Source: Amphibalanus amphitrite
Taxonomy: Eukaryota > Arthropoda > Thecostraca > Balanomorpha > Balanidae
Assembly (NCBI RefSeq): GCF_019059575.1
Contig: NW_024882317.1
Span: 1 to 64,000, forward strand
Direction of reading: 5' to 3'
Length of the DNA stretch: 64,000 nt
Shown here piece after piece: positions 8,184 to 58,917 of the stretch; within the stretch, counting starts at the first letter, position 1; each line of letters opens with the position of its first letter. The notes under the pieces are model-generated. The model was not told the origin of the DNA, made no database searches, and saw nothing but the letters and a program-made list of their open reading frames with translations. The translations under genes were made by a program, and so were the position numbers.

Positions 8184-8211
8184 AGGTCAAAGGTCAGGTC
8201 ACCAGAGGTCA
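8184..8211 (+). promoter_or_regulatory. AGGTCA half-site cluster with DR1 (in TTAA element copy 1)
   Basis: AGGTCA occurs at 8184, 8191, 8196 and 8206. The first two are separated by one base, forming a perfect DR1, the arrangement bound by RXR/USP- and HNF4-type nuclear receptors. Binding is inferred, not shown. Confidence 0.4.
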
Positions 8212-8550
8212 TTGAAGGCAAAATTTCGCCGATTTCCAGGTCGAATGTCGAAAATTTCCAAGAAGCTAACGCATAACTCGGGAACCAATAGAGCTACAGC
8301 GCCGCGGAAAAGTGCATTCGATAGCCCTATTAACGCCCTTTCTGAGTAATTCTCTCAGATTTGACCTAACGTCAACGGTTTTGCCTGCAGGGTGCAAAAA
8401 CTGCAAAAATAGCCGATTTTTTTGGAAACAGTTTTTCTGCAATAACTTTTGACCCAAGCCTTGTACGAGCTTACTTTTACCGGCATCGTGTTCCTCTCGT
8501 CAAGACGAATCGAATGAACTATAACTTGACCTTGAAAGGTCAACTTGAAA

Positions 8551-8580
8551 ATTTGACCTCAGGTCAAGGTCATGACCTGA
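8551..8580 (+). promoter_or_regulatory. Extended half-site and palindromic AGGTCATGACCT (in copy 1)
   Basis: TCAAGGTCA at 8564-8572 matches the FTZ-F1/ERR-type extended half-site, and AGGTCATGACCT at 8567-8578 is a perfect zero-spaced inverted repeat (the classic synthetic thyroid-type palindrome). The match is direct; function is speculative. Confidence 0.35.
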
Positions 8581-9209
8581 CCGGAAAGGGTCATGTTGCA
8601 TATCAGTCGATCCGTATCGTCGAGCTGAACACATATAAGGCGTTTTTATCGCTCTAGCATGCCTCTATCAAAAGTTATTTGCGAAAAACTGTTAGATACC
8701 ATTCGTGACCTAAGATGACCTCAGGGCACAAACAAGGGTCACGGACACCATTTTCATGTTCAGTGTGTCTAAACCACTTGTAATTCGGTGTTTGGGAGTG
8801 TTTATAATGTCTTTCGTCCAAAAGAGGCGCATTTCAATTTTCTCCCATTGACTTATAATGGGGAGGTCGCAAAATTGACCTGACCTTAGGTCATCGGTAT
8901 CAAAATTCTGAGATATACATTTTGTACATGCTATTGCTCTTAGCAATCGCTGAAAGTTTCAAAGCGATCGGTCACTCGGTGTAGCTATGACAGACATTGA
9001 AACTTTTTATGAGGTGAGGTCACTTCAAGTGACCTGGTGACCTGACCTTGAATGACCTTGGTCTGAAATTTTCACAACATGTGTAAAATTGATGTATGAT
9101 AAGGTGTACCAAAAACGGCGGCGCTCCGCGCCGCCGTTTTTGAGATATTCGCGAAAAACCACAAGGGGGGGGTGTTCAAACACCCCCCCCCCAGCAGGGC
9201 GCGGGTTAA

Positions 9210-12200
9210 AGTTCAAACGCTGTCCAATGTAAACTTCCGGCTGTTCTTCAGAGGACGAATGACAGTACCTCTGCTCAGTCGGTTACCCAGTTCACCAAAA
9301 CCACCGCTGGTGTATTCCCGTACTGAAGACCGATCCAGACCCGTGCCTCGCCAGTGCAGTCTTGTTGTGGCGCTCTCCTCCCCCCCCCCCTCGGCGGTGG
9401 ACCAATCATTAGCATACCACAGCCGGGCCAGGGCCGCCACCGCCCGGCGGGACGGAGGTAACGTAATTAACCCGTTTATTGGTAATGAGTTTTAATAGCT
9501 ACCTACACGGCTCGGGCTACGCAGGCGGCACTGGGGGAAGTGGTTCACGGAGGCACTGGTAATGCTCGGTGGACCGACCACCGGGCTGGGTAAAAGGTAA
9601 CGCAAAACGCCTGGGCTCGTGGCTGGCGGCGATTACGATACTGGTAATCGCTGCTGAATTGATGGGTCGAGTCTCGCCCAAGTGCGTGTGGTCCTCCTCG
9701 AATTGACAATGCTTAAGTTTATCTGGCTTAAGTTGAAGATGAAATCAATCAGGCGCATTAGTTGTCCCATTGGGAGCAAACGGGAGAAAATACTGCGTAC
9801 CATTTCCCCCCAAATTTGTTTCAATATGTCCTGATAGGAACAAATAGTGCGCCTGGTTGATATATTAAATATGGGTTAAATTACCACTTGTTAATGCCTA
9901 AAGTCGTTAAAAACTCCTTACACTGGTAGATCATTACTGTCTTCAGGCGGAAGGGCACCAGCAACAATATGGTCGCCATTGACCTAGCTTGGAAGCGTCA
10001 GAGTAGCGTGTCGAGAGCTGCCAGCCTGGCTTACCGGGATTTGAGATAATTCCGGAAGGCTACGCGAGACCGCAAGATGGCTTATTGAACGCAGTAACGG
10101 AATATTGCGTCGCACTTCGTCAAAGGTAATCACTCAACCTTGGCAAAACTTCATGTGTGAGAGCAAATGGGAAGAAATTCGTGTGGAATCTGACGTTTAC
10201 AGATGACAAGGAGTAGTTAGTAAAGACATGGTTTTCTTGTGTAAAACATATCAAAACCTCTAGCATTTCAGATACAAACGAGAAACTCACTCCAGAACTG
10301 AAGCTAGCCATTCCAGCGCCACATTTTTAGACACCTCTCACGCCAGGAATCCATCCACCCCAGGCATGCTCTCCGTCTATACAAAACGAATAAATAACCT
10401 TCCTACCCTCGGTAAATCACGATCACCAGCCACGTGGGCACCAGGAAACTGTGCCGGTTGGCGAGCCCACCGCCCCGCTACTTCCTTTTACGGGCCGCGT
10501 CGTCCGCTGTCCCGCCGGTCACGTTCCTCACAGGCTCACAATGTCAACCGGATTGTGAAAAGTGTTGCATGCGCATGCCGTCATTAGTAATTAACTGGCA
10601 TCGCTAGAGAAGCCATACTATACGCGACATGGCCCGTGTCGTGAGGTAAATTCCAGGCGTCAAGTTTAGCATCAGACGAGCGTGAATAACTCTCAGCAGA
10701 CGATGGGGGCACGGCTGCCAAAGACGCGTCAGAATCGATACTTTCCTGGATGCCGGAGGTTGATGACGTGAAATTCTTCTGTCAACAGCAACAAAGTGGC
10801 CTGGAAGACACGCTGGCGTCATAGCAAACACAGGGAGTCATGACGAGCTATAAGGAAAATAAGCGTAACCCTACTGATCATTGCGCTGGAAATACAAAAC
10901 AAAATATTTTCTTATTCATACGCGCACTGTAATTAGGAGAACGTTTACCAAATAAATACAACGAAAAAGGCTGGTTGAGATGATGACTCAGTGCAGTTTT
11001 CAAAGCAGATAGCGCACATCGCGAAACAATCACAAGAGTCGCATCGGCAAAAAGTGCAAAACGTCACACTGACACGTTCAGTCACGTTCCAAAACCACCG
11101 AGTCATTGACAAATCATCACTCACTATCATTAAGTATAGAGCTGGCAGCGGTATGAAGAACAGCACGTTAGCAGGTCCACCGCAACGTCAGATGAGATAC
11201 ACGCCATCTGATTGAGATCTATAAGACTATTAACATTCTGTCGTACATGTATCAGCCAGCATTAGCGAGACGTATACGTCTTACTTTAAATTGTAAGTCC
11301 ATTAGTGGGTTAGCACTGCTTCACGCTCAACCAGGCATGATAGATTGCACCATAATACTCGTCAGCGCTTCTGAAGTTTATGCTAAGCGCTTGAGGACTT
11401 AATTCCGACGTCGTCCATACCTTGACAGCCTACTTTTTGTGAAGAGATTTATTAAATACTGCATTCTTAACATTTCGATTAATTAGAGAACTTAGCGTAC
11501 TTACAAAGTGAGGCCACATGCAAAGTGATAATGAGCTATGTTTTACACACTTCCTTTAGAGGGTCAAATAGTACGTACAGTTCGAACGAACTGTGCATCT
11601 CTCGAGTATGGAATCGACTTACAAAGGTACATAAAATACCAAAAAAAAAAACATGAACCATAAAAATGTACAATAAAAACAGAACATGCGACGTGAAAAA
11701 GCATAACTTAGAAAATACTCTTCAGAAAGTGAATAAGAAGGTGCAACAAAATGCGAATGCGAGAAAAATGCCAACTTTGAGTTACATGACCTCCCATCCG
11801 GGCAAGAGCTGTCCACAATGTTCCATGACCGACACATGAGGCCACGTGCGCATCACCCCAAAGCAAAGGCGCCGATGGTGTGATGAGTGCTCCGAGCTCG
11901 CGGCCAGTGCGCGTGCCAGACTCAGCGTCAGCCAGAGATGGAGGCACCCGATAGGAGACGATCCCCGCTGGTCGGATGATGCGCACAATCAGGACTCTGG
12001 TGTGAGGCAGAGGGGAACGAGAGGCGAACGAGAGTGGCCGAGAAAACGGAGGGAGAGAGGAGAGAGCGAGACGTAAAAGGTAAAGACTCGGATGGAAAGA
12101 TGGCGAAGGATGAGAGGAATGAGGTCAACTTTAAAGAGGATGATGTTGATAAGTTATTAACGTTTGTAGTCATATACGCAAAAGACTAAAATAAAAGGAT

Positions 12201-14339
12201 TTCACCCATCGCCCTTCGACGACATCCAACGCTGCGCACTCCAAATCAGTGGCGAGATATGGCGCTTTGTGGTGAACTATGAAACAGAATGCCTTACACT
12301 TTCAAACCTATATAGCAGATGCTTTACGAGAGCTGCAAGAAAAATATGCGATGGTTTAGACTCCGACCAACTGTGTTTTTTAGCTGTGGATGTGGTGCGA
12401 CCTAGCCAGTAAATCCAGACTCAGAGGAGTGAAAGGGCGAATCACACACAAACATTTACATTTCTGAAAAGAAACATGATTTGCATACCAAAGCGTCTGG
12501 AATTTCACTTCTCCTGACCACCTCGGACTCACCGGAAGGTGACCATTTCCGCCGCGCCATTTCCGGCGCACCCGCGTCCCTTCTCCTCCGTCCTTGTTCT
12601 ATGGCGAGTCGCTCGTAAACCTGTCCATTGGTCTGTCACCTGGTCTTCAGGCAGCCGCCAGCGAACAGTGTAAACCCGGCTTTATGGCCAGCTTTGCCAC
12701 ACCGAGCGTCAGTCACGCTTAGAATGTGCTGACTGCTGACGGTCGGACGGTCACTGCCTTAGTCTCCACGGGCCCAGTTCGTGTCCGGGCATTGGATTTC
12801 GGTCTTTGGGATTGGTCACCAAACAGATATTTGTTTACCGCTGAAGGTCGCAATAATATCATACACAGCGTATACACAGCGTATACACTATGTATAATAA
12901 TATGTATACACAGCGCGGTCGCCTCCCTTGGGAGAAAAATGCCGTTGTCACTAATTTTCGCACCAGAAATACAATGTGAAAACGCACTACGTCGCAAACG
13001 GAAACTAACCGACCTCGTTATCTAATGAAACAATGAAGCGTAAATGCGTGCCCTGTTCTCTAGTCTACCCGATTCTGTTTTGTAACCTAGGGATAAAGAA
13101 GGACATAATCCTGCGGCTACCGATTCAACTATGTCCAGAGGTAACCATACTCCTGACCATACTCTGGGACGAGGCGAGTTTCAGCCGCTTGCGTGAAACG
13201 TCTCCCTTTTTACATCTTCGTACGACATTCCTGTGGGAAATGCCTGTTTAAGTTTTATAGGTACTGCTGCTGCACGAAAATTACGTCAGACATGCACCGC
13301 ATATTTTATATTGGCTGTTTTCCTGAAATAAATTGACATGTAAAAGACGACTAAGGATTAGTAGAACAGTGAATAGAACTTCAGATCGGCTTATTACCTG
13401 TCAAGTGCAAGGAAAGAATTAATTTAGAATGAAATATTTTTAAATAGGTATTGTTCTACATTTTCAATACCAAAATACCTCACAGCTCACGGGGAACAGC
13501 ATCGCCCTAAAAATGGAATGCTATTTGCACTGTTTGACGTTTCGTTTACAAGAACATCTTCTTAGAGCGACCCATTTTAGGATACCAGTGCTGTTCAAAA
13601 TGCCTCAATTGCTAATGCGCGATCGTAAGGCATAAGTAGCAAAATATACACTTGCAGCATAGCAAAACATGCATGCTTGGAATGTTCTTCCACAAATATG
13701 GAAAAAGCTATGGCATGTGAAACAATTCACAAGCTGTCAAAACACTAGAACATCTCATTTCTTACGACAACTTTATCACCAAAGCTTATTGACATATTCA
13801 TTCACGATGGAACAAAACATTCACAATTCACTGTAACTCTATCGCAAATATCTAAATAAACCGACTCGACTACAACATAGACACTTTCATCTCTGCACGA
13901 AATCCATCATCAAACAAGCAGTTCAGCATACCAGTCGCTACAATTCGGCCAGTCGCTCTCATATCCAACGCAAATCACGGGGGCTTGAATTCCTCGACGC
14001 ACATCAAAACCGTCCCGGCGAGCAGCTCCAGGTGTTTTCCTCCGCTCGGCCTCTCCCCTTAGCGGCGCCGCTGCGCGTTCCTGCCGGCTCTCGTGCCGGG
14101 GTGTGAAAGCGTTTCTTGCCGGCCGAAGCGATATGTCGCCAAAGAGCTGGAGCGACAGGTTAGCCAGGTAAGACCCCGCTGAGATCCTACAGGGGACAAT
14201 TGAGCGGACGCCTCCACGCAGGCTGGCGACCGCGGGGGGGGGGGGGATAGGGGTAGGGCGGTCGCATTCCTGCCGCTCCAATCGTTTGTCCACACGGACG
14301 GTCGTTGGTCGATCGAGACGATCCGGTCGCTGGTTCAGC
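9210..14339. other. No gene recognised
   Basis: Probably netrin intron. Small TATAC/GTATA inverted repeats near 12853-12917 and a G-run at 14233 are the only structure noted. Confidence 0.6.
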
Positions 14340-14590
14340 CAGACTGTCAACTATCCGCCCAGACAGAAGTCTGTCCACCGAGACAGTTAGTCTGTCCAAC
14401 CAGACTGTCAACTGTCCACCCAGAGGCCAGACTGTCTGTCCACCAACACAAGTCTTCCGTCCACCTAGAAGATCGCATGTCCATCTGTCTATCCACCGAG
14501 AAGGCCGTATGAGTTCCCACGGCCTTATGAGTATGAGTCAACCGTCTTTCCACCGAAACAACCATCTTTCCATCCGGACGGCTGCGCGCA
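14340..14590. repeat. Degenerate minisatellite (GTCCACC / AGACTGTC units)
   Basis: Repeated CTGTCCACC(G)AGAC and CCAGACTGTC segments of irregular period. It creates overlapping spurious open frames on both strands. Confidence 0.6.
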
Positions 14591-15073
14591 CAGTCTCGAC
14601 CAAGCGGCTATCCAGACGTCAACCGGGTCGAATATTGCCACTAATGAAGTCCACGCCACCTAATCAAAATGATTCAACTGCACGCTCCAATTGATAGGAT
14701 AACCTCATTTCCCTGAAAATTACCCACGCCTCCACGTTCATCATTTCACTTGCGACAATATTGCTTTAAATGCCGACAAACAGTGAGGCTTCCAAACGCC
14801 TAAGCATCCCTCACTTCCAAAAGCGCTCGCTCAGAAGTGAATCTAACTGCTCATAAGCAGCCACCCGACCCCTCCAGGCCTCCCTATTCCCTCCTGGCTT
14901 CCTGGCGCGTTCCTGTCATGGTTCGGTCGTGTCGGACATACGTGGGCCGCCGCGGGGACTCGTCCAATTATCACGAGGACACCTTTCCAATTAATGTCGT
15001 CCACTCGGCTGCCGATAAGCTAATCTGAATTGGGCTCCGACAGGCGAACGGCAACCGGCTGACGGTGGCTTCT

Positions 15074-15270
15074 AGATGAGTCCTCTCACACCATACCGGG
15101 GTGAGAGATAGATCCTCTTACACTACGGAGGTGAGAGACGGAGCTTCTCACGCCATCAAGGTGAGAGACGGGTGCTCTCGCACTATACCGGGGTGAGAGA
15201 CGAGTCCTCACACAACACCGGGGTGACAGTTCGGTCTTCTCACACTATACTGGGGCGAGAAGCGAGTGCT
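15074..15270. repeat. About 32-bp minisatellite (TCTCACACCATACCGGGGTGAGA)
   Basis: About six diverged copies, each with a TCTCAC start and GGTGAGAGACG end, so each unit is itself a small inverted repeat (TCTCAC/GTGAGA). A weak further copy is at 15306-15350. Confidence 0.75.
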
Positions 15271-15350
15271 GTAAGTTGCCTACCCCTCAATCAAACGGAG
15301 ACATGTCCTCTCATACCATTGCACTGAGGTGAGAAACAGAGCCTCTCACG

Positions 15351-15860
15351 TCATTCCTCGGACAAAACCCTGTCACCTCAAGACGATCATCTCACAGACA
15401 ATCCTCTCACAGCCAGTCAATAGGTTCGTCTCTGAGCGCGCACCAGACATCACAGAAAGTCGCATATGTCTCTCAGACCTTGCGGCTAGCATTGGATCCA
15501 CATCGATCAGCCCAGTCGTCCGATGATCAGTATTCCCGTTTCGAATTCCTCCGGACGTGACGAGAGACTGGCTGAAGGCAGAGAGACCCTGCGATTGGCG
15601 AGGTCCCCGTGCGAGACGATTGTCCGCAGCAGGGTCCGCAGCCTTCGTCACCGCGCTGGTGGACAGTGGATGGGACGGAAGCCGTGGAAAGACAGACTCT
15701 GACTCCGACAGTAACCGTGGAGACACGGGCTCCGACTTTAAACGACTCAACAGTCATGGATCATCGCTTCGCGTTCATTTGGTAATGAACTCGTGCTCGT
15801 ACGCTTCATCTTCTTTTAATCCTTCTCTTCCTCATCCTCCTCTCTTTCTCTCCCTCCCTC

Positions 15861-15898
<38 letters not shown>

Positions 15899-19879: not shown

Positions 19880-20125
19880 CAGGGGTTAACTCCGGTGTAC
19901 AGTCCAGTGTGTCGTGTATCATCCGGTGAACTGGAGTAAAGGGGCCCATATCAGCCAGCGTTAACTCCGGTGTACCGTTTAGTGTCCCACTGTACCGCAC
20001 ATCCTCCAGTGTACCAGCGTACCGTATACCGTCGCATACGCATCGCCCACTATGCTGGTTGAAGGGTACCGTACCGCGTACTATCCAGTGCACCTATGTA
20101 CCCCATACCATCCTGTACCGTACCA
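19880..20125. repeat. GTAC-rich degenerate repeat
   Basis: GTTAACTCCGGTGTAC occurs at 19885-19900 and again at 19960-19975 (75-base period). Further CCAGTG and GTACCG units continue to 20125. Confidence 0.6.
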
Positions 20126-20269
20126 CCACTCCACGGACCTCAGCCGCGACTCGGCGGCGCCCGTTGCTCACCTCGTACATCACTATAGCACATGCAAGGC
20201 GCCGCCGGCGTGAGTCTGGCTCGAGCCGGTCATTAGCATACCTCACCCGGTTCACCCGTCCTACGGCGC

Positions 20270-23450: not shown

Positions 23451-23550
23451 GTTGCCAGAGAGCACCCAGCATTGTCAAAGAGCACCCAAGATTGCCATAG
23501 AGCACCCAGCATTTCCAGAGAGCACCCAGCATTGCCATAAAGCGCCAATA
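23451..23550. repeat. 20-bp tandem repeat (AGAGCACCCAGCATTGCCAT)
   Basis: Five consecutive copies at a strict 20-base period, with one to three changes each. Confidence 0.85.
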
Positions 23551-39995: not shown

Positions 39996-40004
39996 GCCTG
40001 ACAG

Positions 40005-41382: not shown

Positions 41383-41391
41383 GCCTGACAG

Positions 41392-41795
41392 ATCCACCGG
41401 CCTGGGATCTTCGCGAGTAGCCATTTCGCATGAGCGCGCTCATTAGTTCCAGATGTTTACGAAGGAGGACGCTGCTTCGGTGCCACGTTTTGAACTGATA
41501 ATTCAAGCAATTATTTCTCATTATATCAGCTAGTCGAAGCTATTGTCACTGGTCAGGGAGAACGAGTGTGGTTATAACTAGTCCTTATAACATGCAGCCT
41601 CTAGATTGAAGCCTGCAACACATCCACAAAGTGATAACGGAAGGTTGCTATTCATTTGTTAGAAGCACTGTTCGTTGAAATGGTGCCTTTCTACTGAGAA
41701 ATAAAACTGAGTTCTCGGGCAACTTTGCAAAAGATGCCGGAGTATCCCGGGATCGGCTGCTGGCGGCCGACATTTGCGTGTACGGCCGAACTCAC
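41392..41795 (-). other. 5' part of netrin intron
   Basis: Begins at the GTGAGT donor (41795 downward). No further exon is recognisable. Confidence 0.75.
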
Positions 41796-42921
41796 CTTTA
41801 CATTCGTTGGCCGCCTGGTCGGTCGCGCGTCCCCAGGGCCGGTCAAAGTGGAACGGTTTGCATCTCTCGCAGTCTCTTCCCGCCGTGTTGTGCTTACACT
41901 CACAGACTAGCTCTCCGGAGCCGTCTCGAATGCAGCGCGATGCGTGTCCGTTGCACTTGCAGCGGCCGCCGACGGAGAGGTCGGATACGGCGTAGAAGTC
42001 GCTGCCCGTCTCGGAGGTCGTCTCTGAAGTGTAGGAGTCCAACAAGGAGATGGTGTTGTCGGCAACTGAGTCAGGACCGGAGCGGGGAGTCGTGCTCATA
42101 ACCGACGGAAGCAGGTTCAGAGACCCGGCTGAAGATGGTGTCGGGTGAGGTCGGGTTAGCTCAACGCGGATATCCGTAGCAGTAATCCAGTCTTGGAGAA
42201 TAGGACTGTGTTCTAGCTGGTAGGCGCTTGGACGGCCTTCTAACGTGCTGAACGCAACCCTTCCTCCAGCGCGACCTCCAGACATTGGCGTTGGCTCGCA
42301 GAGAGGCTCCTGTTCGTTAGCACGCGTGATAGCCGCTCTTTCAGGTCGACCATACACCCCACGACAATCCGAGCTGTAGTACTGAAACGGCTGCCACGAG
42401 CGACCATAATCCATCGACTTGAAGATCGCCAGTGAGTCAGGTCGCCTCCCGCAAAACTGAAGGCTGATGTATGTCAGTTCGTACTTCTTTCCGAGCGAGA
42501 GAGTAAGCGTGACGGCTGAGTCGTTTACCGGCAGCGCGGCGCTTTGCCAACAGGTTAGGTTACTCGGGTTGTTGAGGTCGGTCAGATGTGAAGGAGGGTG
42601 AGCACGTGCTGGTGTGGACGCGTCACAGATTTGACATTCCGCTGGCTCGCCGTCAGCTCTTGTACACAGTTGCTCGGGAGGTGAGCCGCAAGTAGAAGAT
42701 ACGCTGAGTTGTTGTCCAAACGCGGCGTTTACGAAGTCGGGAACGCATCTCTGAGGCTGGCGAACTGTTTCATCCATGCAGGCATCGGCCGGCGGTGGGG
42801 GCATCTTTGGAGAGAAGAGCATGAAAGAGCGACCACCTCGTGCGGGCTCGGAGAAACCGGGAGAGACGAGGAAGGCCAGAAGAAGTAGCTCCGACAGACG
42901 AAGCGGTGGAGAAGCCTTCAT
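41796..42921 (-). CDS. Net: Netrin, first coding exon (signal peptide + laminin N-terminal domain + first LE module)
   Basis: Netrins are secreted axon-guidance and cell-migration cues that bind DCC/Frazzled and UNC5 receptors. The exon encodes 375 residues plus one base. It begins with an ATG in a good context (CACC before it) and a hydrophobic signal peptide (about residues 1-24, LLLLAFLVS core). The laminin N-terminal domain VI follows (about 32-320), with netrin hallmarks such as [10 protein letters not shown] (167-176), NEQEPLC (202-208), [11 protein letters not shown] (223-233), [12 protein letters not shown] (242-253) and DFYAVSDL (308-315). A complete eight-cysteine laminin-EGF module follows (C321, C323, C330, C340, C342, C351, C354, C374). 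N-glycosylation sequons are NLT (121) and NDS (133). The exon ends AAAG/GTGAGT; the frame beyond is intronic read-through. Vertebrate netrin-1 has a similarly large first coding exon ending at the same module. LE2, LE3 and the C-terminal NTR domain were not found in the window. A Ser/Thr-rich insert at about 258-307 is longer than in vertebrate netrins. Confidence 0.96.
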
Positions 42922-43122
42922 GGTGAGAAGGATAAGCGCACGTCTCGATAGTCCGTATTCACTGAGTCTGGCCAGAGAAGGTCCGCTAAGTTCGCAAATG
43001 ACGGTGATAGTTTAATGCCGCACGTTTAGAGTTTAGTATACACAGTTTTTAGATAATACGGCTCAATGGATTCCGAAGAAGATCGTCTTTGAATCACTGA
43101 TAACCACACTAGATGCTCAGTC

Positions 43123-49500: not shown

Positions 49501-52500
49501 AAGTCGCCCATTAATAAACCATCACACAATGCAGTTAGTGCAGTTTTGCGCTGCCACTCTCATCGAAACCGACCTGAAGTGCGCCTTCAGCCTGTGCTTG
49601 GTGACGAACCGCTTGCCACACTGCTGGCAGCTGAACGGCCGCTCTCCCGTGTGTTGGACCGAGTGAACCTCCAGAGCCGCGCTCGACTTGAACGATTTGG
49701 TACAGCCCTCTGCCTCACATCTGGCGGGAAAATATTGAAAGTGAATGTTTGGGATAAGCTTATGGGGAAAGGAATAAGAATACGGGACAAGGGGCAGTGC
49801 TAGGGGGTCAGCTAAAGATCAAAAGTTAGGCAAAGAAGGTCATGATTAAGCTGGTCCGCCACCGCGGCCGCAGGGGACCAGCTTTCAGCTAATAGGTTTC
49901 GGTTAATATTATTTTCGGGCTTTGGTATCTCCAGGGTTATTATGTGGCAAGGGACAACAGGACAACACGCATACACAAGTCAAGTGCGAGTTTCCGCTCT
50001 GGTACGTGAGAGCACACAGCCAGCCTGGTGAATCCATCAAGGTGACCGAAATGTAGGTATTATGTATTACGACCCATACAGATGATCGACCTCTCCGATA
50101 AAAAATACTATAATGCATTCAAGGTTCAGTCGGGGTAGGGGGAGCCGTAGTACGCACCTCCAGGGCTTCTCTACACCATCATGGTCCTAGCTATAAACTG
50201 TATCGTCCCCAGGTCTTATCAAGGTGTAAATACTGAGCCAATACGCACCTCCAGGGCTGTTCCACACCGTGCTCCCGCATCTCATGCGTCCTCAGTCGTC
50301 CCACAGTGGCAAACTTCCCATCACACTGGTCACAGGAGTGGACCCTGCCGTGCTTTCGGTGTACCTGATTGCAGAGGAGCAGGAAGACATCAATGTTTAT
50401 CTGGTCCCAGAGGACGGAGAGATATCAGCATGTGTCTGACCTAAATGTACAGGCTGATAAAGGTAATGTGCTGAGGCCGATGCCTGGAACACTTAACCTT
50501 CCAGGCGGTGGGGGGGGGCAATTTTTTGCCCCCCCTTTAGTTTTTTCGATATATCTCGAGAACCGCTGCGCCGATCGTCACCAAACTTTCAGTACCCTCC
50601 CGGGAGCAGCTAGCGCACATGGTGACCAAAAATTTTTCCAAAGGCTGCGATAGGTTGGCCGCTAATGACGTCAGAGTGACGTCATTTTTGCCATTTTCGA
50701 CCCAAAAAAAGGTTTCGCGGGAAGAGCTGTCAGGCCTACAGCTTTAGAGATACAGAAAAATGTTTTTGACATAAAAGGTGTGGAATTAAAAGAGCTACAA
50801 AACTGCTATTTCGGTTTTTCGAATTTTTTGGATTTTGACCCCCAAAAATCAAAAAATAGATTTTTTTGAATATAATAGCCAAAAAATCCAAAAAGTTTTT
50901 TGAATTTCGAAAAAACCGGAATATATGTGATAGCCCCTACCGCCTTCTATCTACATACCAAATTTGAGATCGATACCTCTTTTTTTGGCCAAGTTATAGC
51001 GAAAAAACTGTTCAAAATTGATGACGTCAAATTTTCAAATTCAATTTTTAGCCATTCTAGACCTCGTAGCGCAAAACAAAGACCACCATTAGACTCCCCG
51101 TGACGAGCTGCATCGAATCGATACCCATTTTATCCAAAAATATCAACTTTGAAATTTGACCTTTTTTGACCTGACCTTGACCTGACCTCCACCAGAAAGT
51201 GACCTAAACCGTACCTGATGGTTTTATAACCAACACCATTGAGTTGGAAATGAAAAACTGGCCATAAAACATGCATCGCATAACCTTAGTAAAGTTGGGC
51301 TCATGTGGTGACCCTTGGTGACCTTTGGTGACCTGACCTGTGACCTGACCTGGTATGACCAGTGACCTCTAATAGCAACATATGTACTAGACAACTGGCG
51401 CCTTATCGCTGATTTTCGACAAAATGCGTTTTACTCGGTGTTATAGCGCTTTCCCTAGAAGCACCGTGAACGGTGAAACATTTTATCTTTGACCTGACCT
51501 GTGACGTCATCGGTGACCCCGAGGTCAATGAAATTTGGTTTCTTTCGACAAATTTGACAGGGCTATCGAACGCCGTTTGAATTTTCCGGATCCGTCCAGT
51601 AGTTTCGGAGATACGGGGGGGGGGGCAAAAAAGTGCCCCCCCCCCCACCGCGCGGAAGGTGGCTGGTAGGCCCACCGCCTGCCGGGTTAACGAGACATAG
51701 CCAAGTGCATAACCGACGAAATGTCTCACCACTATCAAAGTGGTGTCATATAGAAATTCAAACTTGTCAACCGAACGAAAACGTAACAAAAGATAACTTG
51801 TTGCTATCCTAATTCCTTGAGCCTAATTTTATTAGCCTTTTCAGTCTACCTACCTATTTTCAGTCTACCTGTTTCCCCATATTAGCAGTTTCTACTGGTA
51901 ATGCAGCACCCCAGCGCGAGTCAGACCACACTCACCAGTCTGTGTTGGTTGAGGCAGGCTCTGGTTCGGAACTTTTCACTGCATACAGGACAGTCGATCA
52001 TATTCTGACCGTTGTGTTTGGTCTGGTGCTCCAGGTACGCATTACGAGACCTGAAAAGGTGATGGAATTATACCTTAGATGGCGGTGTGGGCGGCATGGA
52101 AATTCAACGGGGGCGGCATCAGTAACGGCACATACAGCAAATGACGATTGAGATTCTTATAGACATTTGTGATCGGTCTATGGTGGGAAAAACAGCGGAT
52201 ATTGAAAGTGGGGGACACTGATGTAGACGGAATAGTGAATACCGACACAGACGGTGGACATGTGATAAAAAAACGGTGAAGAGAGGACGGAAAATGATAT
52301 AGTTTATGAAGGAAATAGAATATGTGAGCGGACGGCGGACGGTAGACGGTGCAAGTTTTCGTCAATGGCAGACAGAAGAGGGTGGGCAGACAAAGTGACA
52401 CAAAGGGCGAATCAGTTGACGAAATAACAAACCATGCGTACCGCTCAGGGCGCTTTACATGAACATACAGCCGATCATAGTGCTATTACTAACTACAAGC

Positions 52501-55500
52501 ACGCACTGCTTGGTCCGCCCGGTTCGAATACGAAAGCAACTCGTACCTGAAAGTCTTGCGGCAGTGGCGACACCTGATGATTCGTTGCTTTTCATGTTCG
52601 CTCCTTTGATGTTGCTTTAGCTCCGACTCCAGATGGAAGTGTTCATCACACTCGCCACAACTGTACTGCGCGGCGCCCGCCTTGTGCACCGCCTGCAATC
52701 AAAGACTGTGATGAGTTAGAAGGGGAGCTGTTTAGCGCTAATTTAGCATCTCAGTGAACCGGGAGCGATAAATAACATAGAAAAACATAGGAATAGTCAA
52801 CTCCCAAGTCCTAACTCGTAACTAAAATAGGAATAATTCCTATAACATGAGATACTTGACATATGAAAACTGCCTGCCGTAAACCGTTGAGTGGCCGAAA
52901 ATTACTCAACACGGGAACACAGTATGTCAGAGTAGAGAACATCTACATAGAGTATCATGTCCTTCTGCTGCAAAACTGGTAGCGGTGACATAAAAAGTCT
53001 CTCATTGTCATTTCGCAACGTACTGAGCAGTGAACACCAAGCGGAACACACCAGCCCCACGCCACTACTCCTCCCCTCCCCACTTCATCATCATCTTCTT
53101 AGCTAACGCTGAAGTCATGTGCGCTGAAGTCATGTGTGAAGTCCCCGACGCTGAAGTCATGTGCGCTGTCAAGAACTGGGTGAAAAAGACGGAAAACGCG
53201 TTTTTCCGGGCGAAATTCCGGCGTTGGCCGGAACGCTGGGAGAAGTGTGTGCAGGCGGGCGGCGGCTGGTTTGAGGCATAGGCTGCATTCAGAAATGTCT
53301 GATCTATAATCTGTGAAATTTTGAAAGTGTTAAATAAAGAAATAAAGAAGTTATGACCGATTGTTCGTTACTTATTGAACGACCTAATATATCTAATGTA
53401 TTGCGAAAAAAACGACCACTCGACCACAGACTCACCGCCACGTGTTTCTCCATCTCCTGTTCCGTGTCAAACACGAGTGTACACTCTGGACACCGGGGTC
53501 CAGGTGGGCCGTGCCACCTGTGAACGTGTTCCTCCAGCACAGAGCGGCTGGGGAAGGAGCGACCACAGCCCGGCTCCAGACAGGGTAGAGGAGGCCGGGT
53601 GCCCGTCGGGCGTACCACCTGGAAAGTGTGGGACAAAGGTTAGCGATAGTCAGATGGGGACGGAGCCGAGAGGAGGTGTTCGTTTGTTGGGGGTTAGGGG
53701 CGCGCCGACTGCGAGGTCATTTTGCGCCCCAGAGAGGTCGAGATGTGCCTACGTGGAGGCGTGGAGGAGTAAGAGAGCGAGCGAGGACGTAGAAGAAGTC
53801 GCGGCCAGAATAGGCTGGATGCTTCAACAGAGCGAGAACATAAAAGCCGAGAGCGCAGACGCTTACATACCACAGATTCAAAGTCACGCTAGATCTTCCG
53901 TAATTCTCACGCTAGTAATTGATCGGCACCAGCACACGGTTTACCAAAGCGATCTACTGTTAACGCCAGACCTCTTGAGACCCTATTTTTTCGCGATTAT
54001 TTTTGAATGCACGGAATAATTTCAACAAAGCTCAGGACATGGCCGTTTCAAGACCTGCCGAAACTTTTACAATTTAGATATTTTGTCGCCATTTCAATAT
54101 TTCAGGCACTTCTCATTGACTCGTAATGTTAAATTTCGAGCAAGACTTTCACCCGGCGTGTAGAGGCTATCACCAGTCAGTCTGTGATACGTTATGACGT
54201 CACAGCTAAGCCCCGCCTCTGTGGTCTTGGCCTGCGGCGGTTTCGGGCCGGCGCGCGGTCACTCGCGCTGTGGCGGGGAGCGGGGACGGTCGAGCGGTGC
54301 CGAGAGCCGGCGGAGTTGTGCGTAACGTCTTGTCTGACAGTGCCCAAAGAGCGACATGATGACTGAGGAGCCATAAATGGTCAATGCGCATTGCTTGTAC
54401 AATGCTGAAATGTTCGCTGATATTTGTTTTATTTTTTTATAAGCTGCAAATGACGAGCAGATGGCATATAACTGACATAAGGTTAGGAAATATTCACCTG
54501 TATTTAAAGCCTATGGCGTTGCAGGTAATGCGATAATGGGATGTCGGATGTCATCAAGTAGCTCCTGATTTGTACATCGTTATGCAACCATCGAACAACG
54601 CAATAATTAGCTAATTGCGTTTGCTTCACATCATAAGGCTCGCTCGTATTTCACCCAACAGATATCCTACATCGAAAATCGTATTTGTTAGGTCGAATCG
54701 TTAACGTTTTTTCGAAGCATGTGTGAGTAGTAGATTGAGGAGTGATGGTCCTCTTGGTCCCATATACCTACAAGAGTCAACAAGAGCCTAACATTTACTT
54801 GACGGTCTGCTGCAATTGATTCATAGCACGTGAAAGGTCAGCGAAATTCATAGTCCTTTACAGATGGCAGGGATGTCGTTTGTACAGAGGTCGCTGATGA
54901 GCACGGGTCAATGCCGCAGTCGTGGGCGGAGCCTAATGTCATATGACGTATGAAAGCCTCTATCCAGGATGGGAAAACAGTTAACATTACGAGTCAATGA
55001 CAAGTGCCACAAATATTTAAGTGACAACAAAATGTATTTGAAGAAAAAGTTTCGGCAGGTCTTGAAACAGCTATTTCCTAAATATGGTTGAAATTATTCC
55101 ACGCATTTCAAAATAATCGCGAAAAATTAGGGTCTCAAGGCGTCTGGCGTTAACAGTAGTCGAGCATACACTCGTCCTTAACTACTATGGACGTCAAACC
55201 CCTTGAGACCCCACTTTTTTGCGATAATTTTCAAATGCTTCAACTCTCGTTGACGATATTCTGGCAATGTGTGTTTCAGAACCTGCCGAAACTTTTATTA
55301 CTAAGGTATTTTGACGCCAAACGATTATGAAAGGTACTTCTCATTCACTCGTAATGTTAAATTTCACGGAACGAATCTCCTGTTTGGGTAGAGGCTACGC
55401 GCTCATGGGGCGGAGCCACGTAATGACGTCAGCGCTAAGCTCCGCCCTACCCCTCCGGCGCTTCTTGCCCGGCGACCGGTCACTCGCTTCTCGCGCTCCG

Positions 55501-57303
55501 TCCAGGCTTGATGGTGGGCGGTAGCTGGTAGCTGTAGCGGGCGCTGGTAGATGACATTAAGAGCAGATGGCGCTGGTGGCGGGGATCGAGTATGGCCGAA
55601 CGCAAGCCTCTGCCCGGGCCTGAATTGACCTTAGCATTACGAGTGAATGAGAAGTACCTTTCTTAATCGTTTGGCGTCAAAATACCTTAGTAATAAAAGT
55701 TTCGGCAGGCTTTGAAACACACATTGCCAGAATATCGTCAACGAAAGTTCACGCATTTAAAAATTATCGCAAAAAAGTGGGGTCTCAAGGGGTTTGACGT
55801 CCATAGTAAGCTGCAATTTCCATCCCGCACACCCCAACCTACCGGCTGCGCTGACTCGACCGGCGGTGGCGGCGGCTGCAGTACTTGGATGCTTATGTTG
55901 AGCTCTGCCCCAGCCGGATCTTCCTTTACAGACTCACTAACAACGGTCTCCGCATATACCACATCGCCACCAGCGAGATCAGGTTTTTCCTCACGTTCAG
56001 GACTTCTATCATCCCGAGATGATGACAGTGGAGGAGGTGGGGATGTTGAAATGGGAGGACATGATGGGGCAGGAGGAGAGGGAAGAGGAGGGGAAGGGAG
56101 GGCAGAGGGTGGGGAAGACGGAGCGTCCAGGAGAATCATTGGTGATGACTCAGCGGGCGTCTTCGATGAGCGCTGAAACAGAAGAGAGTGGTCGTTAATT
56201 CATATGAAGACGCACATGGATTACCAATGTCAAACAATGGAATCCAATTGAATCGAATCGAAATTGGCCCACGGACCTTCGAAAGCGATCGTGATTCAAT
56301 CCCTTATCATGCACACTACATAATAAGCAGCACATTTGCAAACAAACAGCCATGGCAAATACGTGACGGTAGCGGTGGCACCGTACATTTAAATCTTAGC
56401 TGGCAACTGTAATGTATGTTATTTTAGTGAGAATGAACTTCACAACAAAGTCTATGCCATTTAGTAGCCAGCAGGCATACAGGCACACCTACCAGTCCTC
56501 TGGCGGCGGTCACTTCCAGAAAAGTACTCCGCATCTGTCTCTCTAACTGCCTGAGCGCCTCACAAAGCTGGTGGTATCGCAGAACCCGAGCTAGGCAGTG
56601 ACGGCAGAGACGGGAGCTTGGTGGGATGTCGGCGCACGCCAGCAGCTCCTGCGGGGAAAACATGATGAGGAGCTAAGCCAGGGGGGTGTCGTTGATGAGG
56701 TGATCGAGTTGCGGTATGATAGGGTGAGCGACAAATCGCGGGCAACAAATCGCAAGCGACACATTACGTAAATAAAAATACGTGAAAATGTGCGGGTCAG
56801 TGAAAAAAATTGTGGGGACCAATGCGATCAACAAAAAGCAGAAGAAGAAGTTACAATATCAAAGAAGTGCACGGCAGTCATTTGCACTCAGAAGAAATGT
56901 AAAACCCAGTAACACATAAGACGTTTATAATTGGTTTCACATTTCTTCTAAGTTCAAAATCCGTATTATCGTCCTAACTTTCGTAACTTTCTGTGTCTTT
57001 TGATTCCATCAAATGATGAATTTTCAGTGTCCGCCACAAGCTCATACCTAACAAATCAAAGAAAGACTCTCCTCATCTCAACTCACCACACATTATTCAA
57101 ACGACCCTCACCTGTAGCACTTCTAGAACCGGACGTTCCTCGCTCTCCAGTACCAAATCGGAGAGAGTGACCAGCTCACTGTCAACGGGACCGTCACAGC
57201 ACACACAGGAGCCAAGCTCATCCTCAGGAGAGGGCATGCCATCTGGCGCCTTTATGGAGACCGAGTCATCCTCTGGCTCCATTGAAACTGGATCATCCAT
57301 CAT
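46247..57303 (-). CDS. ZAD / C2H2 zinc-finger protein, whole gene (13 coding exons, 749 aa)
   Basis: This is a complete reconstructed gene. Coding exons in transcript order are 57303-57112, 56648-56493, 56172-55843, 53618-53436, 52692-52547, 52050-51936, 50364-50249, 49720-49574, 49177-49078, 48701-48499, 48095-47954, 47608-47531 and 46588-46247. Together they make 2250 coding bases with matching phases at every junction and a terminal stop. Layout: ZAD (C33, C36, C79, C82), a Pro/Ser-rich linker (117-226), 12 zinc fingers (239-599) and a Ser-Pro-rich acidic tail (637-749). ZAD domains usually mediate dimerisation, and C2H2 arrays usually bind DNA, so a nuclear DNA-binding regulator is likely; its targets are unknown. 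The start at 57303 is preceded directly by an in-frame TAA, which supports ATG ATG as the start unless an upstream coding exon is spliced in. A TTAA element and two TA fold-back elements sit in its introns. I do not recognise a named orthologue. Confidence 0.93.
46675..47009. repeat. 66-bp perfect inverted repeat with about 200-bp spacer
   Basis: 46675-46740 is the exact reverse complement of 46944-47009. It lies in the last intron of the zinc-finger gene, about 90 bases upstream of the exon 13 acceptor on the transcript. A transcript through it could form a long hairpin. It could be a short MITE, but no clear target duplication is seen. Confidence 0.8.
47531..47608 (-). CDS. ZAD-zinc-finger gene, exon 12 (short linker exon)
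   Basis: Residues 611-636, beginning [11 protein letters not shown]. 78 bases, phase 0 at both ends, with acceptor CTTTCAG and donor CAG/GTGAGA. It could be skipped without shifting the frame. Confidence 0.8.
47954..48095 (-). CDS. ZAD-zinc-finger gene, exon 11 (end of finger 11, finger 12)
   Basis: Residues 563-610. It completes finger 11 (H565-x3-H569) and encodes finger 12 (C577-x2-C580-x12-H593-x5-H599). Acceptor CCCTCAG, donor GAG/GTGAGG. Confidence 0.9.
48499..48701 (-). CDS. ZAD-zinc-finger gene, exon 10 (C2HC finger 10, Ala/Thr spacer, start of finger 11)
   Basis: Residues 496-563. Finger 10 is C501-x2-C504-x12-H517-x3-C521, a C2HC variant. An Ala/Pro/Thr spacer follows, then C549-x2-C552 of finger 11. 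Acceptor CCCCAG, donor CTCAG/GTGAGA, phase 2. Confidence 0.9.
48820..49070. repeat. Pyrimidine-rich intronic tract
   Basis: C/T-rich plus strand (TCTCC, TTTCCC runs) filling most of the intron between exons 9 and 10 of the zinc-finger gene. Confidence 0.75.
49078..49177 (-). CDS. ZAD-zinc-finger gene, exon 9 (end of finger 8, finger 9)
   Basis: Residues 462-495. It gives H464 of finger 8, linker TGERPY and finger 9 (C472-x2-C475-x12-H488-x3-H492). Acceptor TTACAG, donor ACG/GTGAGG. Confidence 0.9.
49574..49720 (-). CDS. ZAD-zinc-finger gene, exon 8 (finger 7, most of finger 8)
   Basis: Residues 413-462. Finger 7 is C414-x4-C419-x12-H432-x3-H436. The classic linker TGERPF follows, then finger 8 (C444-x2-C447-x12-H460). 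Acceptor CGCCAG, donor TTCAG/GTCGGT, phase 2. Confidence 0.9.
50249..50364 (-). CDS. ZAD-zinc-finger gene, exon 7 (end of finger 5, finger 6)
   Basis: Residues 375-413. It supplies H376 of finger 5 and a complete finger 6 (C385-x2-C388-x12-H401-x4-H406). Acceptor AATCAG, donor TGGAG/GTGCGT, phase 2. A degenerate copy of this exon's last bases and donor lies at about 50151-50180. Confidence 0.9.
50497..51686. mobile_element. TTAA-flanked non-autonomous element, copy 2 (diverged subfamily)
   Basis: 1190 bases in the intron between exons 6 and 7 of the zinc-finger gene, flanked by TTAA at 50493-50496 and 51687-51690. The ends share CAGGCGGTGGG in inverted orientation and carry fold-backs of a G-run, a short T-rich centre and a C-run (about 50509-50537 and 51616-51652). 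The interior is AT-rich with AGGTCA clusters at 51168-51192, 51307-51367 and 51491-51532. Same size and plan as the other two copies, but different interior sequence, so a separate subfamily. Confidence 0.75.
51329..51351 (-). promoter_or_regulatory. AGGTCA half-site cluster with DR1 (in TTAA element copy 2)
   Basis: TGACCT (minus-strand AGGTCA) starts at 51329, 51334, 51341 and 51346. The 51334/51341 pair has one spacer base, making a DR1. A TGACCTTGA extended half-site is at 51172-51180. Confidence 0.35.
51936..52050 (-). CDS. ZAD-zinc-finger gene, exon 6 (end of finger 4, most of finger 5)
   Basis: Residues 336-374. It completes finger 4 (H344-x3-H348) and opens finger 5 (C356-x2-C359-x12-H372). 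Acceptor TTTTCAG, donor CTG/GTGAGT. The following intron contains a TTAA-flanked element. Confidence 0.9.
52547..52692 (-). CDS. ZAD-zinc-finger gene, exon 5 (end of finger 2, finger 3, start of finger 4)
   Basis: Residues 288-336. It supplies H290 to finger 2, then finger 3 (C299-x2-C302-x12-H315-x4-H320) and the first half of finger 4 (C328, C331). Acceptor TTGCAG, donor TTCAG/GTACGA, phase 2. Confidence 0.9.
53107..53166. repeat. Short direct repeat GCTGAAGTCATGTG, three copies
   Basis: Copies at about 53107, 53121 and 53150. In the intron between exons 4 and 5. Confidence 0.7.
53436..53618 (-). CDS. ZAD-zinc-finger gene, exon 4 (finger 1 and most of finger 2)
   Basis: Residues 227-287. 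Finger 1 is C239-x4-C244-x12-H257-x4-H262. Finger 2 starts C269-x2-C272-x12-H285, and its last histidine (H290) comes from the next exon. Acceptor TTTCCAG, donor GCG/GTGAGT. Confidence 0.9.
53957..55156. mobile_element. TA-flanked fold-back element 1 (176-bp inverted termini)
   Basis: 1200 bases in the intron between exons 3 and 4 of the zinc-finger gene. The inverted termini (53957-54132 and 54981-55156) start CTGTTAACGCCAGAC and contain GCCGAAACTTTTA and a GTAATGTTAA inner end. TA flanks both ends (53955-53956, 55157-55158), as for Tc1/mariner-type insertion. The core carries TGACGTCA and GGGCGGAGC motifs. No coding sequence is seen, so it is non-autonomous. Confidence 0.8.
55185..55806. 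mobile_element. TA-flanked fold-back element 2 (same family, short core)
   Basis: 622 bases, only 28 bases from element 1. The inverted termini (55185-55360 and 55631-55806) begin CTATGGACGTCAAACC, with a perfect outer match of at least 27 bases, and TA flanks both ends (55183-55184, 55807-55808). The termini share length and motifs with element 1 (TTGAGACCC near the tip, GCCGAAACTTTTA, CTCGTAATGTTAA) but differ at the tips. The core has GGGGCGGAGC and TGACGTCA. It ends 36 bases from exon 3. Confidence 0.82.
55843..56172 (-). CDS. ZAD-zinc-finger gene, exon 3 (Pro/Ser-rich linker)
   Basis: Residues 117-226. Low-complexity Pro/Ser runs ([17 protein letters not shown]) with an acidic middle, joining the ZAD to the fingers. 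Acceptor TTTCAG, donor CCG/GTAGGT. The end of a fold-back element lies only 36 bases beyond the donor. Confidence 0.88.
56493..56648 (-). CDS. ZAD-zinc-finger gene, exon 2 (second half of ZAD)
   Basis: Residues 65-116. The second ZAD cysteine pair LCRHC (C79, C82) is followed by an amphipathic helix ([12 protein letters not shown]), the usual ZAD layout. The acceptor is CCCCGCAG and the donor is CTG/GTAGGT; both junctions are phase 0. Confidence 0.9.
57112..57303 (-). CDS. ZAD-zinc-finger gene, exon 1 (start codon, first half of ZAD)
   Basis: Residues 1-64. An acidic N-terminus leads into the first ZAD cysteine pair (CVCC: C33, C36). The exon ends CTACAG/GTGAGG at a codon boundary, splitting the ZAD by an intron. 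Confidence 0.85.
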
Positions 57304-57892
57304 TTATGAACAATTAGTGTCTGCAACAGAGAATATGGGTACCTATTCCAAACTTACAAACACCCTTGATATGCTCTTTTACTTTGAAGCTTTTCAGTAA
57401 GTTAGGTCATGACTGCATTTGCAAAGCATGTCTGCAGTGCAAAGCACTGCAACAGTGTCAAAAATGAACAAAATACACAAGCTAGGGTAACAAAGCATTG
57501 GTGCCTTTAAACTTGTTTGTGCCATGAATAATTATCAGATATGAAACCAAGAGGTCAAAGGACATCATGTGATTTGCTTCTTACTTGGGGATTGCACTGA
57601 AAGCAAATTGGTGATCAGTCCAAAAGTAAATAAGGTGAGGTGAACAGGTGAGTTGAAATAAATACTGACAAAGCCACATCAGTCCAACTCCACAATAAAC
57701 AAGGCCCAGAACTGTTGATATATAATTGACAAACCAAGGCTCATTTTCACAAGGTTCATTTCATAATTGTTGAGACTCTGCCAATGGAAATGGGGAACCA
57801 ATTGACCTAGCCTTCTTTTGAGCCAAGGTAGGGGCATAAAATGCATACATATTAATATGAAAATATTATTTCAATCTTTCTTATCACCTTTC
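57304..57892 (-). other. Upstream region of the zinc-finger gene
   Basis: An in-frame TAA directly precedes the ATG. No clear TATA box or upstream exon was recognised before TTAA element copy 3 begins. Confidence 0.5.
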
Positions 57893-58044
57893 TTAACCCG
57901 CGCCGGGCCGGGGGGGGGGGGTGTTTGAACACCCCCCCCCTGCGGTTTTTCGCAGATATCTCAAAACGGCGGCGCGGATCGCCGCCATTTTTGGCACACC
58001 TGTTCGTGCATCTTTTCCGCACATGTTGTGAAAATTTCAGACCC

Positions 58045-58073
58045 AGGTCACCTTAGGTCAGGTCACCAGGTCA
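58045..58073 (+). promoter_or_regulatory. AGGTCA half-site cluster (in TTAA element copy 3)
   Basis: AGGTCA starts at 58045, 58055, 58060 and 58068, four in 29 bases. Confidence 0.35.
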
Positions 58074-58899
58074 CGCCAAGTGACCTCACCTCAGAAAAAA
58101 TAAGAATGCTCGTCATAGCTACACCGATTGATCGATTGCCTTGAAACTTTCAGCGATTGATAAGAGCAACATTATCTATAAAATGCATATCTCGGAATTT
58201 TGATATCGGTGACCTAAGGTCAGGTCAATTTTGCGACCTCTCCATTATAAGTCAATGGGAGAAAATTGAAAAGCGTCTGTTTTGCACGAACGTTATTCTA
58301 GACACTCTCAAACATCGAGATGTAGGTAAAATGGACTCACTGAACCGGAAAATGGCAACTGTGACCCCTCGTTATGTCCCCGAGGTCATCTCAATTCTCA
58401 GGTCACGAACAGAATCTAACAGTTTTTCGCTAATAACTTCTGATAGAGACGTGCTAGAGCGCTGAAAACGCCTTAGATGTGTTCGGCTCGACGTTGCGGA
58501 TCGACTGATATGCAACATGACCTTTTCCGGTCAGGTCATGGCCTTGACCTGAGGTCAAATTTTCAAGTTGACCTTTCAAGGTCGTCAAATTATAGTTCAT
58601 TCGACGCGTCTCGACGAGAGGAACACGATGGTGGCAAAAGTAATGTCATGACTCTTTTGAGTCAAAAGTTATTGCCGAAAAAACGTTTTTCGTAAAAACA
58701 GCTATTTTTGGAGTTTTTGCCCCCTGGAGGCTAAACCGTTGACCTGAGGTCAAATCTGAGAACATTACTCAGAAAGGTCTGTAAAAGGGCTATCGAATGC
58801 GCTTTTCCGCGGCGCTGTAGCTCTATCGGTTCCCGAGATAGCCGTTGGCAGTTTCCAAAATGTTGAAATAGTGGACATTTGACCTTTGGTGACCTCTGG

Positions 58900-58917
58900 T
58901 GACCTGACCTTTGACCT
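58900..58917 (-). promoter_or_regulatory. DR1-type half-site pair (in TTAA element copy 3)
   Basis: TGACCT starts at 58900, 58905 and 58912. The last two form a perfect DR1 with one T spacer, at the position equivalent to the DR1 of copy 1. Confidence 0.4.

Follow-up and report, generated by a model that had tools for sequence, protein, structure and literature searches.

Evenly spaced AGGTCA clusters in TTAA elements of Amphibalanus amphitrite suggest sites that help the elements jump rather than make genes hormone-responsive

The first 64,000 nucleotides of contig NW_024882317.1 of Amphibalanus amphitrite (Arthropoda, Balanidae; assembly GCF_019059575.1, 807,550,619 bases), hereafter called the window, contain three elements inserted at TTAA, c1, c2 and c3, that carry clusters of AGGTCA, a hexamer that matches the nuclear-receptor half-site (Table 1). 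The elements c1 and c3 belong to sister families and align end to end at 83.6% identity over ungapped columns. c2 represents another family of the same architecture; in blastn its similarity to the other two is confined to the ends, the half-site arrays and some short, scattered segments. Stop-to-stop frames of at least 110 amino acids that touch the three elements number just two; both overrun an element end, and neither found a match in a Pfam search, so a protein-coding relic was rejected; Rfam and tRNA searches of the window returned nothing. Having no coding capacity, inverted ends, a homogeneous size and a high copy number, the three elements are miniature inverted-repeat transposable elements (MITEs), at 1.2 kb longer than is usual for them. 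An imperfect palindrome of 270 bp lies at the centre of c1 (window 8427-8693, 63%); it is weaker in c3 (55%), and none was seen in c2.

When the three elements are combined, AGGTCA is the top-ranked 6-mer by excess, with 58 occurrences seen and 1.54 expected from dinucleotide shuffles. The individual counts are 21, 15 and 22 for c1, c2 and c3, respectively, while the highest values in 1000 shuffles of each are 4, 3 and 3; the remaining 60.4 kb of the window hold 32 copies, close to chance. An A precedes GGTCA in 58 of 74 cases, and a purine in 66 of 74. An earlier interpretation made from the letters of the window, which we call the sequence-only reading, had described nuclear-receptor-like AGGTCA arrays in these TTAA elements. 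All six motifs that it quoted were found at their coordinates, the arrays are real and family-wide, and the observation is larger in scale than first described. As for the two ordinary sources that it named for such an excess, composition is excluded, while simple tandem repetition may still have produced the direct repeats of half-sites separated by one base (DR1; other spacings are named likewise).

Similarity searches of the assembly gave 2738, 5748 and 3560 first-look candidates for c1, c3 and c2, respectively, sets that may overlap. The 40 candidates scored per family are 96-100% identical to the query (98-100% for c1), and each family therefore contains young copies. TTAA was found at both ends in 27 of 30 c1, 24 of 30 c3 and four of five c2 copies recovered. 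A pattern for the end structure (TTAACCC, G-run, short centre, C-run) had 36,189 forward matches versus five for the reversed pattern used as control; the reverse-strand count (121,498, control 3) was set aside as probably inflated by multiple start points in G-runs. Because there is about one forward end per element, these numbers suggest some 36,000 elements, which at a usual length of 1.2 kb would occupy about 5% of the genome. Motif pairs were counted on both strands against reversed controls and amounted to 258,952 overlapping AGGTCAGGTCA (control 1,178), 150,840 DR4 (532), 47,085 perfect DR1 (650) and 14,700 DR3 (276). Many of the DR4s among the matches listed are AGGTCAGGTCAGGTCA, i.e. 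three overlapping units. Receptor-like sites have thus spread through the genome, in line with the sequence-only reading, and might affect the host.

The half-sites are not scattered along the elements but form a comb. The fetched loci contained 143 hairpin-type ends, of which 134, with at least 420 bp of sequence and a C-run, were grouped into 20 types. In these, half-site clusters occur mostly in bands at about 150-205, 315-390 and 475-570 bp from TTAA, and the comb is common to families with dissimilar interiors. Its best period is 175 bp (R=0.74), a value compared with 2000 random placements that reach at most 0.55 when scanned over the same range at every second period only. The band limits used in the k-mer, spacing and polarity tallies were set after the bands had been seen; the period scan and the lists from contig C1, a separate sample, are independent of them. 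That sample comprises forward-strand ends and sites only and the first matches listed. Among these, 28 of 65 DR1s are found no more than 1300 bp downstream of one of the forward ends listed, a space covering 7.4% of the sequence, and 40 of 100 AGGTCAGGTCA (7.1% of the sequence) and 39 of 100 DR4s (6.7%) lie near listed ends. The period is near the nucleosome repeat length, which is suggestive only; a 10.3-bp signal over whole ends was rejected as a nucleosome signature because it arose from the arrays.

Table 1. Elements and half-site clusters in the window (., mixed strand)
Feature	Position	Strand	Remarks
Element c1	8008..9209	+	TTAA element without recognised gene, 1202 bp; G-run/C-run palindromes at both ends
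c1 cluster, slot 1	8184..8211	+	holds DR1 8184-8196
c1 slot 2	8362..8367	-	one half-site
c1 cluster, slot 3	8527..8578	.	holds AGGTCATGACCT palindrome
c1 cluster, slot 4	8706..8721	-	
c1 cluster, slot 5	8876..8893	.	
c1 cluster, slot 6	9017..9058	.	slot 1 counted from right end
Element c2	50493..51690	-	other family than c1, same architecture, 1198 bp; apparently within an intron of a C2H2 zinc-finger gene (placement by eye)
c2 right end, TGACGTCA pair	50666..50684	.	50666-50673 and 50677-50684; slot where most other ends have AGGTCA
c2 cluster, slot 3	51157..51205	-	
c2 cluster, slot 2	51319..51368	-	holds DR1 51334-51346
c2 cluster, slot 1	51490..51527	.	
Element c3	57893..59082	-	sister family of c1, 1190 bp
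c3 cluster, slot 6	58045..58086	.	slot 1 counted from right end
c3 cluster, slot 5	58210..58227	.	
c3 cluster, slot 4	58383..58405	+	
c3 cluster, slot 3	58518..58574	.	
c3 cluster, slot 2	58740..58752	.	
c3 cluster, slot 1	58880..58917	-	holds DR1 58905-58917

The comb also has a direction. AGGTCA reads inward from TTAA in 36 of 45, 37 of 45 and 23 of 35 cases in slots 1, 2 and 3 (inward/outward 36/9, 37/8 and 23/12). Pooling slots 1 and 2 gives 73 inward versus 17 outward (p ~2e-9, a value that, like those for the comb, is too small because sites within an array and the ends of related families or of one element are not independent). The tally covers 17 of the 20 end types, L064, L072 and L076 having been dropped as they have no AGGTCA in the bands; counted by type, slot 1 has an inward majority in 12 of the 14 types with AGGTCA there, with one tie and one outward. 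The same slots are shared by TGACGTCA (ACGTCA occurs 41 times in bands and once in gaps, AGGTCA 122 and nine times). For example, TGACGTCA is found at 173-189 bp in the right end of c2 and in two other ends without AGGTCA at this place.

Spacing was tallied in 14 representatives, consisting of c1, c2, c3, the coding element C44 described below and ten other ends; several end types were omitted, and the sisters c1 and c3 are both included. Steps of 5 bp on the same strand are the most abundant (27), followed by 10 bp (DR4; 20), 15 bp (10), 6 bp (DR0; 9) and 11 bp (DR5; 9). DR1 and DR2 occurred three times each and DR3 never, and the commonest inverted spacing is the everted repeat ER1 (8). The spacings used by receptors (DR1-DR5, inverted and everted repeats) are therefore not favoured over others; DR4 is one of them, but many of its instances consist of three overlapping units. 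In the bands of these representatives the hexamers that end in GTCA are AGGTCA (112), ACGTCA (23), GGGTCA (10) and CGGTCA (7), and the receptor variant AGTTCA is rare (3). The spacing looks like that of a tandem 5-bp unit tolerating C at hexamer position 2, not like receptor-dimer grammar.

DR1 itself occurs once per window element, alongside three, five and three overlapping AGGTCAGGTCA and three, two and three DR4s in c1, c2 and c3, respectively. The sequence-only reading had placed a DR1 in every copy. This is close to the truth within the three families, where 27 of 30 c1, 30 of 30 c3 and five of five c2 copies fetched have one, but not beyond them, since only three of the 14 representatives do, namely c1, c2 and c3 themselves. 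DR1s exist in other families too: on contig C1 those near listed ends fall at 167-201, 335-341 and 715-730 bp, the last group accounting for 12 of the 65 among the matches listed. It had further seen the DR1 persisting in c2, taken for a diverged copy. c2 is not a diverged c1 copy, and its DR1 lies in another slot (consensus position 345, versus 173 in c1 and 169 in c3), so there is no persistence at a homologous place.

The distribution of changes between copies indicates where selection acts. We compared 30 c1, 30 c3 and five c2 copies, the best-scoring of 40 scored per family, with ends, CpG and homopolymers omitted and the same filters applied throughout. Private changes, found in one copy only and arising mainly after insertion, number 25 in half-sites versus 188 elsewhere (ratio 0.81, 95% interval 0.53-1.22, p=0.37), 32.5 being expected in half-sites when matched for base. 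Variants in at least two copies number one in half-sites versus 54 elsewhere (ratio 0.13), and the c1 and c3 consensus sequences differ at three of 139 half-site columns versus 116 of 725 others (ratio 0.13; 4/141 and 154/898 with CpG columns included). Private changes thus depart from fixed (p=0.0033) as well as from shared ones (p=0.022). At c1 sites alone there are no differences in 123 columns (p=3.5e-5 even with the expected divergence halved for ascertainment), and at c3 sites three in 139 (p=0.0035). All 21 half-sites of the c1 consensus sit at aligned half-sites in c3, and for the window copies of c1 and c3 none of 1025 circular shifts of the half-site mask reaches the observed identity. 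The window copy of c3 has lost TCAAGGTCA and the palindrome; both TCAAGGTCA and AGGTCATGACCT are present in the consensus of c1 and of c3.

The simplest reading of these counts is that constraint acts in the lineages giving rise to new copies, and none is detectable in resident copies. c1 and c3 are collinear, and both lack a recognised gene, so that the ancestor of the two was probably non-coding before they diverged; the constraint would therefore be on being mobilised, not on expressing a gene. Two proposals of the sequence-only reading lose ground here. It suggested that the elements could exploit receptors for their own expression, yet c1 and c3 keep all 21 sites without a recognised gene; a selected hormone response of the host would be expected to constrain resident copies, which show no significant constraint, although a weak one would fit the interval.

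A coding relative was found among matches to piggyBac transposases, of which 116 were scored and eight loci read. C44 (locus L074 with its neighbour L080) measures 3975 bp from TTAA to TTAA, has palindromic ends similar to those of c1, c2 and c3 and contains on its minus strand a stop-to-stop transposase frame of 667 codons. It matches PF13843 above the cut-off, and its transposase matches Trichoplusia ni (T. ni) piggyBac 6x67 with 252 bits (E 1.2e-73) and piggyBat with 110 bits. None of its 12 half-sites lies within the frame; they flank it: the left end has its first one at 179 bp, and on the right most belong to tandem modules of 188 bp, with TGACGTCA at 186, 374, 561 and 754 bp from the right TTAA. 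A cysteine-rich stretch of C44 is, judging from its Cys/His pattern, what we take for a C-terminal zinc domain. The same modules recur at locus L081, where two C44-type right ends stand back to back at a single TTAA (L081 215).

The five ordinary piggyBac copies among the eight loci, two of them near-identical, have 0-4 half-sites inside and no TGACGTCA, and in the other two loci a pair of ends was not recognised. At L072 253-3296 and L068 3335-3549, ordinary piggyBacs (ends TTAACCCATTAG) seem to have inserted in or beside half-site elements, giving nested TTAA insertions. The Kolobok superfamily also uses TTAA; the sole coding element with hairpin-type ends that was read, C44, has a piggyBac transposase, and no search aimed at a Kolobok transposase was made. 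The terminal CC[C/T]T, a hallmark of the piggyBac superfamily (PMC2872659), is seen as CCCT in C44 and many other ends and as CCTT in the right end of c2; c1, the consensus of c3 and the left end of c2 begin with CCCG.

A short 'address' preceding the G-run is often duplicated in left ends (window 8008-8060 and 59030-59082, and contig C1 ends). In a comparison of 31 listed end sequences, chosen as distinct by eye, 10 of 16 distinct left-type ends have an outer copy that agrees with the inner 7 nucleotides of the address at six or more of seven positions. Some left-end addresses also match a right-type end. The address varies between families, as if co-evolving with the transposase.

We consider it somewhat more likely than not that these elements form a non-autonomous piggyBac-like group and that the clusters are cis sites promoting transposition, most likely bound by the zinc-binding domain of a transposase. 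The enrichment, the comb and its polarity, the slots shared with TGACGTCA, the constraint between source lineages without a significant one in resident copies, and the recurrence of this layout in an element that has a piggyBac transposase frame were all computed. A TGAC[C/G] unit that is tandem, oriented to the ends and conserved between source lineages is best explained by transposase binding. The C-terminal zinc domain of T. ni piggyBac binds TGACGCATG, and a cryptic site TGACGTACG has been described, the sites containing TGACG (PMC7351741); elsewhere the domain is said to recognise the pentamer TGCGT (PMC8086355). c1, c2 and c3, with their TTAA targets and G-run/C-run palindromic ends, would be non-autonomous members of a large piggyBac-like group, moved by C44-type enzymes, as we infer. 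Clusters of AGGTCA or TGACGTCA, placed in steps of about 175 bp inward from the ends, would raise the chance of an element being mobilised. The zinc-binding domain, the presumed binder, would recognise the short TGAC[C/G] unit, with tandem 5-bp units giving avidity, the inward orientation giving polarity to the assembling complex and the even spacing perhaps setting complexes roughly a nucleosome from one another. On this view the DR1 and DR4 sites that resemble those of receptors would arise as a side effect of the tandem units. A more daring and doubtful version has the nucleosome-length comb of inward TGAC[C/G] sites building an extended transposition complex over several nucleosomes, the spread DR1 and DR4 sites serving as a genome-wide receptor sink or a substrate for rewiring.

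Several known systems share parts of this layout. T. ni piggyBac has the TTAA target, asymmetric ends, a related transposase core (see the C44 match above) and zinc-domain sites with a TGACG core or the TGCGT pentamer (PMC7351741, PMC8086355). In those accounts the described sites lie within its minimal 35- and 63-bp ends; the elements studied here have instead inward clusters every ~175 bp over more than 500 bp, G-run/C-run palindromes and an end address that is often duplicated. In piggyBat from Myotis lucifugus, repeated subterminal transposase-binding motifs near the left end control and tune activity (PMC11707139). Its motif, however, is GCGGGA with a palindrome, spaced 44 bp, its zinc-domain fold is unlike that of T. 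ni, and its match to C44 is weaker. The nearest precedent that we found for internal conservation beyond the ends is provided by the coral CMITEs, TTAA MITEs linked to piggyBac; between their families the ends are less well conserved than the internal region, which was suggested to aid transposition (PMC2872659). Their conserved internal sequence is different, and the parts consulted describe no half-site comb. The CERP2 and CELE2 MITEs carry a repeated motif pair bound by the transposase-related host protein HIM-17 (PMC9757741). Their m1m2 pairs are located in inverted repeats and were co-opted as germline promoters (PMC9757741), in contrast to the long combs and the resident copies without significant constraint described here.

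A number of observations weigh against transposase binding. AGGTCA is constant while the terminal addresses vary between families, which also fits a conserved host factor; its sharpness, with A before GGTCA in 58 of 74 cases, matches a receptor half-site, and TGACCT is one base off the TGACG of the moth sites. The comb is not universal: of the 26 ends listed for the first 474 kb of contig C1, six have no listed motif pair within 1000 bp, and the comb is missing from the first 620 bp in three of the 20 end types (L064, L076 and L072), although the L072 type is interrupted by another transposon. In the gaps between clusters the nucleosome signature is not clear (peak 11.2 bp; 8 of 200 shuffles as strong). 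Half-sites differ less within families too, before private and shared changes are separated (ratios 0.30 in c1, 0.60 in c3 and 0 in c2), and the interval of the private ratio is compatible with mild constraint in resident copies. Conserved c1/c3 blocks without half-sites (window 8288-8328 with its counterpart in c3; 25 and 15 identical columns) mean that half-sites are not the sole conserved part of these elements. The cysteine-rich stretch of C44 lies in a different frame from the transposase; as the frame does not read into it, this copy may be inactive. The stretch alone yielded no solved relative, and none of the eight loci read contained a coding element whose ends are exactly those of c1, c2 or c3; the piggyBac-type DDE transposase was found with hairpin-type TTAA ends (C44), not with theirs.

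Host proteins could be at work in place of the transposase, alone or in pairs, mainly because the hexamer stays constant while the end addresses vary. One account has a nuclear receptor (HNF4, RXR/USP, FTZ-F1 or a COUP-like orphan) binding the half-sites, with the elements exploiting it to become mobilised, for instance through an open state in germ cells, and spreading hormone-responsive sites. The purine-first hexamer, the genome-wide DR1 and DR4 counts and the retention of TCAAGGTCA and AGGTCATGACCT in both consensus sequences all suit it. We nevertheless regard it as unlikely, given the dominance of overlapping 5-bp units and 10-bp steps, the scarcity of DR1 and DR2 and the absence of DR3, the common ACGTCA next to the rare AGTTCA, the TGACGTCA in the same slots, the polarity relative to the ends and the resident copies without significant constraint. 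The hormone-receptor reading is thus unnecessary, and it sits badly with the spacing, the polarity, the shared slots and the site of selection, though a receptor might still bind in vivo. The slot sharing and the near-nucleosomal period would be accommodated by two host factors, a basic leucine zipper (bZIP) protein of CREB/ATF type at TGACGTCA and a receptor or other GGTCA binder, the clusters then being enhancer-like or nucleosome-phasing units that keep the elements accessible to any piggyBac enzyme; the position of the C44 clusters both upstream and downstream of its gene agrees with this. We hold this pairing to be somewhat less likely still, as it needs two proteins where one TGAC[C/G] binder suffices, the gaps lack a clear nucleosome signature, and end-directed polarity is unexpected for enhancers.

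The clusters might also bind nothing: slippage of pentamers, tandem modules and palindromes could have left them behind as debris, retained by chance or for the folding of DNA or RNA. C44 does have 188-bp tandem modules and c1 a central palindrome; c1 and c3 fold well (z -7.7 and -5.2, 15 shuffles each; part of c1 as DNA, z -8.65), and in both, scrambling the half-sites weakens the fold more than scrambling other positions. In contrast, c2 folds weakly (z -2.0) and is stabilised when its half-sites are scrambled, so a fold or hairpin was rejected as the common cause. No circular shift matches the half-site identity of the window copies of c1 and c3, and half-sites are avoided by shared and fixed differences but not significantly by private ones. 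We regard an absence of binding function as highly improbable.

This is an unusually clear case in that constraint on source lineages and private changes in resident copies can be compared at each site, and the contrast points, with no experiment needed, to a short motif that functions in cis. It offers a model, open to testing, of how piggyBac-type ends are read in chromatin, and a genome in which the load of ~200,000 perfect receptor-type DR1 and DR4 matches could be measured, many of the DR4s coming from overlapping GGTCA units. It also cautions that AGGTCA enrichment in a repeat need not imply hormone control. Alu elements with DR2 or HNF4 sites reportedly represent repeats that spread receptor-type sites, as here; Alus are retroelements, unlike these TTAA elements. 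Half-site combs in TTAA elements were not found described in the titles and abstract openings of the open literature searched.

Searches outside the assembly gave six matches in prokaryote genomes, taken as chance, at loci that hold 6-11 half-sites per 8 kb. In viral contigs, two DNA patterns had no match and a netrin exon of the window had no confirmed relative. This exon lies at window 41659-43011 on the minus strand and encodes a laminin N-terminal domain and the start of EGF. The window also holds a C2H2 zinc-finger exon and, at 53954-55808, other inverted repeats with arms of ~180 bp that are apparently unrelated to the half-site elements.

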